Shown: positions 29,938 through 34,550 of the stretch, in pieces
How the letters are laid out: the number at the start of each line of letters is the position of its first letter
Position numbering within the stretch: position 1 is the stretch's first letter
Origin: Paracoccaceae bacterium
GTDB taxonomy: Bacteria; Pseudomonadota; Alphaproteobacteria; Rhodobacterales; Rhodobacteraceae
Reading direction: 5' to 3'
NCBI GenBank assembly: GCA_029248915.1
Contig: JAQWIK010000094.1
Coordinates: 1 to 37,875 of the forward strand
DNA length: 37,875 nt
Translations under genes and position numbers: made by a program
The notes under the pieces: generated by a model
Told to the model about the DNA's origin: nothing
Databases searched by the model: none
The model's input: only the letters and a program-made list of their open reading frames with translations

Positions 29938-31752
29938 CTAATTATCTTTCCACCAAACATCTGGAAAAAATCCTATTCGATCTCCATACAATGGAATGTA
30001 TTTCGGATATAGTAAATCTGATTTATGAGCTATCCGACTTGGCCCATTATGATAAATGGGAATAACATAACGACCCGCCATTAAGATGCGATCCATTGCT
30101 CTAGTGATTGACTGAAGCTCATTAATTGACTTGGATTTCATTATTTTATTCAGTAGTTTATCCATAACAGGTGATTTTAAACCCATTAAATTTCTAGTTC
30201 CTTCAACATCGGCGTATTCAGAAGACCAATATAAATATTGTTCGTTTCCTGGACTAAGTGACAAGTCCCTAGAATAAGGTACCATATCAAATTCTAGTTT
30301 TTTAATTCTTTCCCAATATTGGGAACTATCAACTAATTCAATTTTTACATCAATACCCAATCTACGTAGAGCTGAGGAGTACATTTCGACAATTGATAAA
30401 TATTCTTTAGCACCCTGCCGGAGTAAAATCGAAAATTGAAACTGATGGTCTTTATCATTATAAAGTTTTCCCTCAGTTACATTGAAACCCGCTTTTTCTA
30501 AATTTTTTAATGCCTTTTTCATGTTGGCTCTGTTCCGTTCTGATCCGTTTGATTTAGGCAACTTGTACCCTTCAAAGGTGCCTGGAAGATGAGAGCCATC
30601 AAAATTTTGTAGTAATTCTAAAACACGGTTCTTGGCCACACCTTCTCTCATGCCTAGTGTTGAGTTGGAAAAATAAGAGGAAATGCGCTGCTGCCGTCCA
30701 GCGTTCTGTGCTTCATTGATATATTCAAAATTGAATGCTTCAATTAAAGCTTGCCTAACCCGCCAATCAGAAAAAATTTCGCGCCTAGAGTTCATTACTA
30801 GCCCGCGCATTCCAGTAGGTCTTCCGTGAGGAATTTCAGACTTAATAACTTGCCCACTCATTGCAGCTGGAAAGTTAAATAGGTTCTCCCATTTTTCCGC
30901 ATTACCTTCTCTGTATATGTCTATATCACCGGCTTTAAATGCTTCAAAAAGAACCGTTGAGTCTCCAAAATATTCAATGGAAATTTTATCAAAATTTAAA
31001 GTTCCTCTCCTGAATGGTAAATTATTTCCCCAATAATCAGGGTTACGTTCCATAGTGATGGACTTACCTGGTTTTACCTCTGAAATTACATAAGCGGCTG
31101 TTGATACGGGAATAATTTCAATACTGGAATTTTCAAATTCACGTTCATGCCACTGCGATTTTTGTAGAATAGGTCGCATTCCGGCTAAGAGTGCTAACTC
31201 TGGATTGTTCTCATTAAAACTAATCTTAACACTTCGTGGGCCAGTTTTTTCTATACTCTTTATTTTTTTCCAAAGACCTCGATATCTCCAATGGCCTACT
31301 GTACCCAATTTTTCGTATGACCAAATAACGTCCTCTACTGTAACGGGTGAATTATCGCTGAATTTCGCTTCTTTTCTAAGCCTAAATTCAACCCATTTCC
31401 GATTCGGACCTGTTTCAATCGATTCTGCCAAAAGGCCGTATAGCGTAAATGGTTCATCCCAACTTCTTCCCATAAGAGTTTCATAGTTCCAAAACCGCAG
31501 TTGCCATGGAGAACGCCCTTTAATAATGTGTGGATTTACTGAATCAAATGAACCTACGGCTCCAATTTTTAAAATGCCTCCTTTTTTTGCGTTTGGGTTG
31601 GAATACGGAAGAGACACAAAATCGTGTGGTAATTTGGGTGAGTCATACATAGAGATTGCGTATTTGGGCTGTGAAAGTGCGCTATTAGCAAAACAGAAAA
31701 AGTAAAAAATAAGAAATAAGCTGGAAAATTTCTTAAGTTGATAATTCGCCAT
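29938..31752 (-). CDS. extracellular solute-binding protein family 5 (YejA-like peptide/oligopeptide ABC transporter)
   Basis: This 604-residue periplasmic binding protein has an N-terminal signal peptide (MANYQLKKFSSLFLIFYFFC, cleaved about residue 27 at ALSQ). The family 5 (SBP_bac_5) fold is shown by GGILKIGAVGSFDSVNPHI, GLLAESIETGP, FRLRKEAKFSDNSPVTVEDV, the ITMERNPDYWGNNLP block and GMRGLVMNSRR. The YejA-like opening KYAISMYDSPKLPHDFVSLPY places it in the branch that imports peptides such as microcin C-like compounds or murein and other oligopeptides. Permease and ATPase partners (yejB, yejE, yejF) are not adjacent. It is encoded downstream of a DUF502 gene but separated by about 220 nt containing a forward small RNA candidate. 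Confidence 0.9.
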   Translation of the reverse strand: MANYQLKKFSSLFLIFYFFCFANSALSQPKYAISMYDSPKLPHDFVSLPYSNPNAKKGGILKIGAVGSFDSVNPHIIKGRSPWQLRFWNYETLMGRSWDEPFTLYGLLAESIETGPNRKWVEFRLRKEAKFSDNSPVTVEDVIWSYEKLGTVGHWRYRGLWKKIKSIEKTGPRSVKISFNENNPELALLAGMRPILQKSQWHEREFENSSIEIIPVSTAAYVISEVKPGKSITMERNPDYWGNNLPFRRGTLNFDKISIEYFGDSTVLFEAFKAGDIDIYREGNAEKWENLFNFPAAMSGQVIKSEIPHGRPTGMRGLVMNSRREIFSDWRVRQALIEAFNFEYINEAQNAGRQQRISSYFSNSTLGMREGVAKNRVLELLQNFDGSHLPGTFEGYKLPKSNGSERNRANMKKALKNLEKAGFNVTEGKLYNDKDHQFQFSILLRQGAKEYLSIVEMYSSALRRLGIDVKIELVDSSQYWERIKKLEFDMVPYSRDLSLSPGNEQYLYWSSEYADVEGTRNLMGLKSPVMDKLLNKIMKSKSINELQSITRAMDRILMAGRYVIPIYHNGPSRIAHKSDLLYPKYIPLYGDRIGFFPDVWWKDN

Positions 31753-31832
31753 ATTAATGCCATTCCTTCGATTTTATGTAAGCCACTACCAAAAATATTA
31801 ATAGTTAAAATGCTGTTTTACAAACTTTTTAC

Positions 31833-31861
31833 TTGGCGTTAAGCCTGGAACGTTGTATAAC
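31833..31861 (+). promoter_or_regulatory. promoter of a candidate small RNA
   Basis: A -35 TTGGCG (31833-31838), a 17-nt spacer and a -10 TATAAC (31856-31861) form a good sigma-70-like promoter on the plus strand, with a predicted start near 31868. No protein-coding gene lies downstream in this direction before a strong terminator at 31916-31943. Confidence 0.7.
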
Positions 31862-31867
31862 AAATCT

Positions 31868-31943
31868 ACTGCTCGATAGGTTTCTTGCCTGTATGAAACC
31901 TGCCTCAATAACTTAGCGCCTGCATTAGCAGGCGCTTTTTTTT
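31868..31943 (+). ncRNA. candidate trans-acting small RNA, about 76 nt
   Basis: The predicted transcript begins about 7 nt after the TATAAC -10 and has two hairpins. The first is AGGTTTC/GAAACCT (31878-31884 with 31895-31901) with loop TTGCCTGTAT. The second is the Rho-independent terminator GCGCCTGC-ATTA-GCAGGCGC followed by eight T residues. A 14-nt single-stranded region (GCCTCAATAACTTA) lies between them, and GCCTG recurs in loop and stem. The T run is only on the plus side, so this ends a forward transcript although both flanking genes are on the minus strand. I recognise no known family. The start and existence of the RNA are inferred. Confidence 0.65.
31916..31943 (+). terminator. Rho-independent terminator of the candidate small RNA
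   Basis: Perfect 8-bp stem GCGCCTGC (31916-31923) with GCAGGCGC (31928-31935), loop ATTA, and T8 at 31936-31943. On the opposite strand no T run follows, so the orientation is forward. Confidence 0.92.
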
Positions 31944-31973
31944 ATAATTTAGCTATTTAGGCCGCCGAACTAA

Positions 31974-32663
31974 TTAACTTTTTTTGGTAACTCGGCTATT
32001 ACTATCGGAGCTTTTTGAATTTGTAATTTTTGTTGGTGGGTATACAAGCCCTGCAGAGATAACTAATTTTGCTGCGTCTTCGATTGACATGTCTAACTCT
32101 ACTATATCTGCTTTTGGAAAGAACAACAAAAAGCCAGATGTAGGGTTTGGGGTTGTTGGGACAAAAACTGAAACCATTGAGCCTTTTGAAGAATTTCGTT
32201 CCGCTATCTCGCCTTTCGCAGTAGTGGAAATAAAACCAATAGCCCAAATCCCTTTCCTTGGATATTCAATCATACAAGCTTTTTCAAAAGACCTTTCTTG
32301 CTGCGCAAATACAGTCTCTGCAATTTGTTTGATACCAGAATAGAAAGACCTAACTACTGGCATTCTATTTACCAAATTTTCAGCATATTTTATGAAAGAA
32401 CGTCCAATTAATCCTTTCGCCAACCAGCCTACTAATGTTGCAAAAACTAAAAATACTACAACCCCAACACCTCTTATATTTAGCTTTAAGTCATAGCCAA
32501 AAAAGGTATTGAGAATTTTTTCTGGGCGGTAGGCATCTGGCACAAAAGGCAAAACAAGTCCATCGAACCATCCAATTACGCTCCAAATTAACCATATCGT
32601 GAGAGCTACTGGGGCAATCACAACGATACCTGTTAAAAAACTTGTTCTTAAACGTGCGAGCAT
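31974..32663 (-). CDS. DUF502 domain-containing membrane protein
   Basis: This 229-residue protein has two N-terminal hydrophobic segments (about residues 9-30, TGIVVIAPVALTIWLIWSVIG, and 64-85, VGVVVFLVFATLVGWLAKG) followed by a soluble domain with the DUF502 blocks RMPVVRSFYSGIKQI, ETVF, VFVPTTPNPTSGFLLFFP and DIVELDMSIEDAAKLVISAG. The molecular function is not established for bacteria. The C-terminus is polar and serine/lysine-rich. It is downstream of psuG on the same strand with an 88-nt gap. Confidence 0.9.
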   Translation of the reverse strand: MLARLRTSFLTGIVVIAPVALTIWLIWSVIGWFDGLVLPFVPDAYRPEKILNTFFGYDLKLNIRGVGVVVFLVFATLVGWLAKGLIGRSFIKYAENLVNRMPVVRSFYSGIKQIAETVFAQQERSFEKACMIEYPRKGIWAIGFISTTAKGEIAERNSSKGSMVSVFVPTTPNPTSGFLLFFPKADIVELDMSIEDAAKLVISAGLVYPPTKITNSKSSDSNSRVTKKS

Positions 32664-32751
32664 AATTACACTACAGCCAATCGTACTTCTTAAATTTCAT
32701 CTTATACATTTAGTTGGTTAAACCAATAATTAAAACTTCGAACTTTATTCT

Positions 32752-33651
32752 TTAAAAACACAATGCAATTTTTGATGCAAGTTTTGCATTATTCTTAATT
32801 AAGGCAATATTGGCTAAAAGTGATTTACCTTTGGAAAGTTGATTAATTTTTGAGAGTATAAAAGGTGTTACTTCTTTGGCTATTATATTACTTTGATTAG
32901 CCTGTTTTACGGCCTCTATTACTATTGGCTCAATTATCTCAAAAGGAATTTGATCTTCTTTAGGTATTGGGTTTGCGATTAGTTGACCTCCAGGTATCCC
33001 AAGGTTTTCTCGGATTTTATGGGATTTAGCGATCGAGTGTGCATCATCTAATGATAGTGGGGAGGCAAAAGGGCTATCGCTTGACCAAAAGGCTGGTAAC
33101 TTAGCTTGCCCGAAAGTTATAACTGGAACACCTAGGGTTTCTAAAACCTCTAATGTTTTTGGAATGTCCAAGATTGCCTTAGGTCCAGCGCAGACTACTG
33201 ACACGCTTGTTGAAGAAAGCTCTTGTAAGTCAGCTGAGATATCAAAAGTTTGTTCAGCAAATTTGTGAACACCGCCAATTCCACCTGTGGCAAAAATTTT
33301 AATTCCAGCCAACTTTGCAATTATCATTGTTGCGGCAACCGTAGTCGCTCCTGTTTCCTTTTTTACTAAGCAATGTGCCAAATCTGCTCTAGATAATTTT
33401 CTAACGTTTCTACTTTCAGATAGCTCAGATAGTAGTTCATCTTCTAGCCCAACGTTTATTACGCCTTTGATAACAGCTATAGTAGCGGGCGTAGCACCAT
33501 ATTCTCTTACAACTGACTCAACACTTTTAGCAGTCTTCAGATTTTCCGGCCATGGCATGCCATGTGTTATTATAGTACTTTCTAAAGCAACTATTGGTTC
33601 GTCGTTTTTAATAGCTTGTTCTACAGCAGATGAATATTCAATTTTAATCAT
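32752..33651 (-). CDS. psuG: pseudouridine-5'-phosphate glycosidase
   Basis: This 299-residue enzyme breaks the C-C bond of pseudouridine 5'-phosphate to uracil and ribose 5-phosphate. Conserved residues are seen: E24 in ALESTIITHGMPWPEN, the GATTVAATM block at 101-109, FATGGIGGVHK, D141 in ISADLQEL, and the catalytic-type lysine K158 in CAGPKAILDIPKTLEVLET. FGQAKLPAFWSSDS and EVTPFIL follow. It is joined to psuK by TAATG at 33649-33653, so the two are translationally coupled and form a complete salvage route for RNA-derived pseudouridine. Confidence 0.95.
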   Translation of the reverse strand: MIKIEYSSAVEQAIKNDEPIVALESTIITHGMPWPENLKTAKSVESVVREYGATPATIAVIKGVINVGLEDELLSELSESRNVRKLSRADLAHCLVKKETGATTVAATMIIAKLAGIKIFATGGIGGVHKFAEQTFDISADLQELSSTSVSVVCAGPKAILDIPKTLEVLETLGVPVITFGQAKLPAFWSSDSPFASPLSLDDAHSIAKSHKIRENLGIPGGQLIANPIPKEDQIPFEIIEPIVIEAVKQANQSNIIAKEVTPFILSKINQLSKGKSLLANIALIKNNAKLASKIALCF

Positions 33652-34550
33652 TAGATTTCAGTTTCGACATATTTTGATGTGCTTTCTGCAGCTTTTTTTA
33701 AAGCATCTTCTTTTGTTAATTGATTAATTCCATTAATAATATGACAAGCTAAGAAATAATCTCCAGCACCTGTTACATGACCTATACTTTTAACTTTAGG
33801 CGGCAAGATTGAAATTGGTTCATAATCAATAGATGAATCGCAAATGCTTTTAGCGCCATCGGTGACAATAGCTCTCCCCAAGCCCTTTTTTAGCAAATAA
33901 GAAGAGGCCTGTTTGGTGTTTTTAAATTTCAAACCACAAAGTTTTTCAGCCTCAGTTTTATTGCAGTAAATTGTTGCGTTTGAGAGTCTTAAAAATGGTT
34001 TCAACCTAATAGCTTTAGAAGTTGAAGCAGATGCGATTCTTAAATCACAATTATTTAAATTTTTATTCTTGGCAATCTTGCTTAAGGTTGCTGGACTTAA
34101 GTTTCCATCAATTATGATTAAATCGCTATCCAATCCTTGGTTTTTTTTCACAACTCCATTTTCTAATGGTTTCAAGATCCTTTCACTAAACTTTTCAACA
34201 TTTTTAACATTCGCAATTGCAGCTTTCAGTCCCTTTTTATCCTCAATTGCTAAATAACTGTCAGTTTCTGAGTTATTACAAACATAAATATTATTTGTTA
34301 TAATTCCCAATTGGCCGCACAAATCTAAAATAGCGTGACCGTTGGTATCGTTTCCTATAGCCGTTAATAGTTCTACGTTAGGCAATCCACTCAAAGCTAA
34401 TTGTTTGCAAATATTGAATGCTACTCCTCCAATACTTGTTTTTATGGTGCCAGTGACATCATCGCCTATATTAATCTGACTTTTACTATAACCAATAGTA
34501 TCTATAAGAGCGCTACCTGCACATACTATTTGGTAATTATTGGGGATCAT
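33651..34550 (-). CDS. psuK: PfkB-family kinase, probable pseudouridine kinase
   Basis: This 299-residue ribokinase-family protein has the N-terminal sugar-binding region SIGGVAFNICKQLALSG (residues 39-55) and the anion-hole/catalytic motif VTGAGDYFLACHI, with D264 as the expected base. Its coupling to psuG (the stop overlaps the psuG start by one base) identifies pseudouridine as the likely substrate, which it would phosphorylate at the 5' hydroxyl. The family alone would not distinguish it from other nucleoside or sugar kinases. Its start overlaps the end of the DUF4198 gene by 14 nt, so the three genes are probably one transcript. Confidence 0.88.
   Translation of the reverse strand: MIPNNYQIVCAGSALIDTIGYSKSQINIGDDVTGTIKTSIGGVAFNICKQLALSGLPNVELLTAIGNDTNGHAILDLCGQLGIITNNIYVCNNSETDSYLAIEDKKGLKAAIANVKNVEKFSERILKPLENGVVKKNQGLDSDLIIIDGNLSPATLSKIAKNKNLNNCDLRIASASTSKAIRLKPFLRLSNATIYCNKTEAEKLCGLKFKNTKQASSYLLKKGLGRAIVTDGAKSICDSSIDYEPISILPPKVKSIGHVTGAGDYFLACHIINGINQLTKEDALKKAAESTSKYVETEI

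Follow-up and report, generated by a model that had tools for sequence, protein, structure and literature searches.

The stretch of DNA analysed here (the window; 37,875 nucleotides, contig JAQWIK010000094.1 of a Paracoccaceae bacterium) carries a short plus-strand gene between two minus-strand protein genes, one for a YejA-like solute-binding protein (SBP_bac_5) and the other for a DUF502 protein. The initial annotation had postulated a hidden small RNA gene at this place, with a TTGGCG-N17-TATAAC promoter, a hairpin, a linker and a terminator followed by T8, both neighbours on the opposite strand and an RNA of about 76 nt laid out like Hfq-type trans-acting sRNAs. These elements were all found where it had placed them (31833-31943, plus strand), the orientation of the neighbours and the layout of the RNA were confirmed, and the gene proved real, being conserved in relatives and folding far better than shuffled sequences. 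Only the two stems had been counted one pair short: hairpin 1 has 8 pairs instead of 7, the outermost being U-G, and the terminator has 9 instead of 8, the outermost being A-U. This is a free-standing trans-acting sRNA gene of Hfq-type layout.

The RNA folds at a predicted -26.7 kcal/mol, against -15.2 ± 2.5 kcal/mol for dinucleotide shuffles (z = -4.61), and 0 of 200 shuffles were as good. Its terminator is the strongest among five terminator-like sites in 30000-34000. The parts of the gene are collected in Table 1, where the start at 31868 was deduced from the first base that is conserved and its spacing to the -10 element.

Table 1. Features of the sRNA gene and its promoter (window positions).
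Feature	Position	Strand	Remarks
sRNA gene	31868..31943	+	about 76 nt; very probable StsR ortholog, by agreement of properties
conserved upstream box AAACTTTT	31822..31829	+	about -47 to -40; column conservation in 159 distinct upstream 60-mers
-35 element TTGGCG	31833..31838	+	from sequence; family consensus CTTGGa
-10 element TATAAC	31856..31861	+	17-nt spacer; family consensus TATAaag
5' single-stranded element ACUGCUCG	31868..31875	+	complement of CGAGCAG(U) in the mraZ leader, the second pairing site
hairpin 1	31877..31902	+	stem 31877-31884 with 31895-31902; 10-nt loop UUGCCUGUAU; RNAfold
main pairing region GCCUGUAUGAAACCUG	31887..31902	+	antisense to CAGGTTTCATACAGGC of the mraZ leader over 16 nt, no mismatch
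linker CCUCAAUAACUU	31903..31914	+	CCUCA invariant, remainder variable (alignment A1)
intrinsic terminator	31915..31943	+	9-bp stem 31915-31923 with 31928-31936; ATTA loop; T8 31936-31943

We examined the promoter in relatives. Common to 159 distinct upstream sequences are cttttCAAAcTTTtagCTTGGa, a 17-nt spacer and TATAaag, which ends 6-7 nt upstream of the first invariant base, an A taken as the start. The TTGG of the -35 element is 86-100% conserved per column, and the spacer measures 17 nt in 123 of the 148 relatives scored. The promoter (31833-31861) was absent from the output of a generic sigma-70 scan; taken alone it is thus unremarkable, and it is its conservation in relatives that stands out. 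The hallmarks of RpoHI/RpoHII promoters are a TTG at -35 and a TAT near -12 (PMC10673084). The conserved CTTGGa-N17-TATAaag fits this motif, which is also compatible with a housekeeping sigma factor. Just 5' of the -35 element, a box with the family consensus cttttCAAAcTTTtag (31820-31829 in the window) is strongly conserved in nearly all copies (loci L001-L148); it may serve as an UP element or as a binding site for an activator. In Neomegalonema MAGs (L042, L093 and L101) the sRNA core is identical and the -35 and -10 sequences are clearly different, so the promoter type may differ there.

The conservation of promoter and hairpins in close relatives, on which the initial annotation had staked its reading, is extensive. 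By BLAST with a 126-nt query, the element was detected once per genome in 56 of the 61 family genomes, and in 0 of 40 genomes that belong to other families of this class; the five family genomes lacking a match have incomplete assemblies (completeness 53-77%). At least 118 contigs, which represent different species-level genomes, contain the exact 40-mer CTGCTCGATAGGTTTCTTGCCTGTATGAAACCTGCCTCAA. Among the matches listed, nearly all contig titles are Rhodobacterales and the others unplaced alphaproteobacterial, and the carriers include Cereibacter flavus, Ruegeria pomeroyi, Roseobacter, Sulfitobacter, Jannaschia and Neomegalonema. The C. flavus ortholog (L106), from the genus of R. sphaeroides, has an identical 40-nt core.

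In 100 of the 106 loci that could be tested, the gene upstream of the sRNA is YejA, encoded on the opposite strand. On the downstream side most loci (81 of 103) have a 3-hydroxybutyrate dehydrogenase gene, and in the window DUF502 follows directly. In Ruegeria pomeroyi, 3-hydroxybutyrate dehydrogenase, patatin-like and acetyltransferase genes stand between the sRNA and DUF502 (L049, 2783-6144), a block absent from the same place in the window (31944-31973). Four loci with an identical core, from Neomegalonema MAGs (L042, L101) and marine single cells (L052, L062), showed no detectable YejA homolog upstream. The sRNA keeps its own promoter and terminator whatever its neighbours, as expected for an independent gene.

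Paired substitutions, which the initial annotation had proposed to look for in both stems, were analysed on an alignment (A1) of 61 distinct sequences under the two-helix structure. The structure left 97.6% of cells paired (88.7 ± 0.5 in shuffled alignments), with 87 double-change cells (22.4 ± 3.5 shuffled) and a covariation score of 0.261 compared with 0.086; structures slid along the alignment dropped to 30-49% paired. Covariation is confined to the terminator stem, where 8 of 9 pairs are changed on both sides in relatives. The stem of hairpin 1 is almost invariant (99.6% of cells paired) and thus yields no covariation evidence; it barely varies because its loop and 3' arm are both pairing sequence for the mraZ leader.

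Indeed, over 16 nt the loop and 3' arm of hairpin 1 are perfectly antisense to the mraZ leader of the window's own genome (contig C63, 22961-22976), at the head of the dcw (division and cell wall) cluster. We searched 101 genomes for the complementary CAGGTTTCATACAGG. In the genome of the window it occurs in two places only, antisense to the sRNA gene and in the mraZ leader; most family genomes have it once or twice, antisense to the sRNA gene and in a second place. No occurrence was found outside the family, and a reversed control pattern gave 0 matches in the 101 genomes. When 33 of the sites outside the sRNA gene were fetched, 31 lay in mraZ leaders and two elsewhere, as unrelated chance sites. 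Of the 61 family genomes, 37 have a perfect 15-nt complement in the leader, and the count rises to 44 when one substitution is allowed. Two of the five incomplete family genomes that gave no sRNA match (G002 and G014) have the target site.

A second leader site, GCGAGCAG, is found about 50 nt downstream in most leaders and is the complement of the RNA 5' end CUGCUCG; in the window's genome the complementary stretch is 8 nt long. That leader thus has both complementary sites together with the conserved surrounding region. The order of the sites lets one sRNA molecule bind both, as does the duplex predicted for the window's genome. For its 249-nt leader the predicted pairing energy is -21.1 kcal/mol, versus -7.4 ± 2.6 kcal/mol for shuffled leaders. 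With 190-nt leaders from ten genomes, predicted pairing was stronger than the shuffled-leader mean in all ten (z from -2.3 to -5.2), the 190-nt leader of the window giving a predicted z of only -2.7. Members of the MED-G08 branch within the window's genus (G003, G006 and G011 among them) have an altered second site, GGAGCGCAGAC or GGAGTGCAGAC, and a perfect main site; the latter thus appears, from these sequences, to be the essential one.

Two genomes depart from this picture. In G044, the most divergent family member, the sRNA (L277) is changed to CCTATGTGAAACC and the mraZ leader (L254) to GGTTTCGTACTAGG; further upstream than usual, this leader also contains TTTCGAGCAT, which is complementary over 10 nt to the 5' end of the G044 sRNA. 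In a swap test its own RNA-leader pair scored no better than swapped pairs, which lends no support to co-variation of target and RNA. In G023 the sRNA core (L291) is perfect and no recognisable pairing site was seen upstream of mraZ (L271). The dcw leader is thus probably not the sole target, and the sequences point to further conserved targets beside it.

The claim of the initial annotation that the RNA matches no family holds for Rfam, of which no family reached its gathering score with the window RNA or with four relatives; at E-value level the matches stayed below threshold and were due to the terminator. The ACUGCUCGAUAGGUUUCUUGCCUGUAUGAAACCUGCCUCAA RNA nevertheless very probably has a counterpart among studied sRNAs, which we take, by agreement of properties, to be StsR (RSs0827) of R. 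sphaeroides 2.4.1. StsR, formerly RSs0827, is a 72-nt, Hfq-associated sRNA of R. sphaeroides under the control of RpoHI/RpoHII (PMC8307010; PMC8625941). By pairing with UpsM and with the dcw 5' UTR it makes an RNase E site accessible and reduces dcw expression; it also destabilises rpoE mRNA (PMC8307010; PMC8625941; PMC11354728). UpsM is a 206-nt sRNA that arises in R. sphaeroides by partial termination in the long mraZ leader and starts 268 nt upstream of mraZ; RNase E shortens it from 206 nt to a 130-nt piece, a cleavage that depends on Hfq and RpoHI/RpoHII, and both the long leader and UpsM are described as exclusive to Rhodobacteraceae (PMC5089854). The RNA behind this cleavage is StsR, for which induction by stress and in stationary phase has been reported in R. 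sphaeroides.

The gene described here shares with StsR a trans-encoded orphan position, a length of about 72-76 nt, a promoter motif that fits the RpoH type, its own terminator, the bacterial family and complementarity to UpsM and the mraZ/dcw leader. The C. flavus RNA measures 74-75 nt to its last T, or about 72-73 nt with a shorter U tail. In the same species the pairing site in the leader starts about 194 nt before mraZ, which corresponds to about nt 75 if the leader is 268 nt long as in R. sphaeroides, and adjoins the cut expected from the 206- and 130-nt sizes, coordinates that were measured in R. sphaeroides. Since the two agree in length, promoter motif, target, position of the target site and taxonomic distribution, we hold with high confidence, on a comparison with the published description of StsR, that the gene is an StsR ortholog. 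A literal search of papers for pieces of the RNA returned unrelated papers only, and the accessible part of a paper on Ruegeria pomeroyi sRNAs lists trans-sRNAs without positions usable for matching.

There are also differences from the model organism. The sRNA of the window comes from an uncultured marine lineage, of the same genus as MED-G08, whose genome is close to 2 Mb, and is known from sequence, whereas expression, Hfq binding and effect were reported in R. sphaeroides. The reported StsR-rpoE pairing was not recognisable in the three genomes tried: no complement of the sRNA of at least 9 nt was found in three rpoE-chrR loci, a weak test in which duplexes were computed without shuffle controls. 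The putative UpsM counterpart (RSs0682 in R. sphaeroides) lies outside the window, on contig C63, where termination within the leader would be as in R. sphaeroides.

Could the RNA be an RpoH-type sRNA other than StsR, as yet undescribed, with the same UpsM/dcw leader target? The comparison by description would allow it, and a core kept in a genome with no clear dcw site indicates that the RNA has other work too. We consider this improbable: size, promoter motif, target and family range correspond to StsR, the site lies next to the known RNase E cut, and in the genomes searched the 15-nt antisense is limited to the sRNA gene and the leader, apart from the two chance sites. Membership of the alphaproteobacterial mmgR/suhB (alpha-r8) or BjrC1505 families, which are likewise short sRNAs ending in an intrinsic terminator, is very unlikely. 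Covariance models gave weak scores of 22.1 bits for suhB/mmgR (RF00519) and 25.5 bits for BjrC1505 (RF02356), far below the gathering thresholds of 41 and 50 bits, and unrelated families such as the Streptococcus SpF41 sRNA scored as high, because all of them end in a terminator hairpin. Moreover, BLAST found no relative in the 40 genomes outside the family, none of the four relatives gave a gathering-level match, and no shared pairing element was shown.

A chance arrangement of promoter, hairpin and terminator, or the terminator of a neighbouring gene, has a negligible probability. The generic sigma-70 scan did miss the promoter; against this, the neighbouring genes are on the other strand, and chance is refuted by 40 identical nt in at least 118 contigs and the conserved promoter, together with the fold (z -4.6) and the double changes in the terminator (87 cells versus 22 ± 3.5 shuffled). 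Equally negligible is a small peptide gene reading ATGAAACCUGCCUCAAUAACUUAG (MKPASIT), whose ATG is kept in nearly all copies but lies inside the pairing region, lacks a Shine-Dalgarno sequence at the usual distance and opens a frame that is not kept (it has 7 codons in 38 distinct RNAs, runs on beyond the terminator in 42 and takes assorted other lengths in the rest).

With the gene, its promoter, its terminator, their conservation and perfect target complementarity established, StsR action in this lineage may be pictured as follows. RpoH-type stress or stationary-phase sigma factors, as shown in R. sphaeroides, would start transcription at about 31868, and the transcript would end at the terminator. 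Probably on Hfq, the sRNA would find CATACAGGC in the mraZ/dcw leader with its exposed loop GCCUGUAU as seed; hairpin 1 would then open, its 3' arm extending the duplex to about 16 bp, and the 5' end of the sRNA would clamp the second leader site about 50 nt further on. UpsM, the terminated form of the leader, and the dcw leader itself would refold and expose an RNase E site for cleavage, as in R. sphaeroides, so that dcw expression would fall and division slow. The sequences presented here support the pairing steps, and analogy with R. sphaeroides suggests the sigma-factor step, expression, Hfq, RNase E cleavage and the effect on division.

The RNA is thus a known sRNA in a new, unannotated ortholog, from a lineage in which, to our knowledge, StsR had not been pointed out. 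StsR has been described in a single model organism, and automatic annotation overlooks it elsewhere, since nothing in Rfam scores above threshold with it; an Rfam family could be built on the alignment, promoter and target site assembled here. What makes the finding useful is the family-wide pairing of sRNA and target, which, with the hint of further targets, should be of moderate interest to specialists, and the invariant 40 nt give precise, testable pairing predictions. The data would suggest that, as a general rule in a major marine order, uncultured plankton included, a stress sRNA directly controls the division cluster. On balance we lean slightly towards StsR and the dcw leader being an old two-RNA stress brake on division across Rhodobacterales, including small-genome open-ocean lineages, with at least one further conserved StsR target, since the 40-nt core is letter-perfect in G023, whose dcw leader has no recognisable site.
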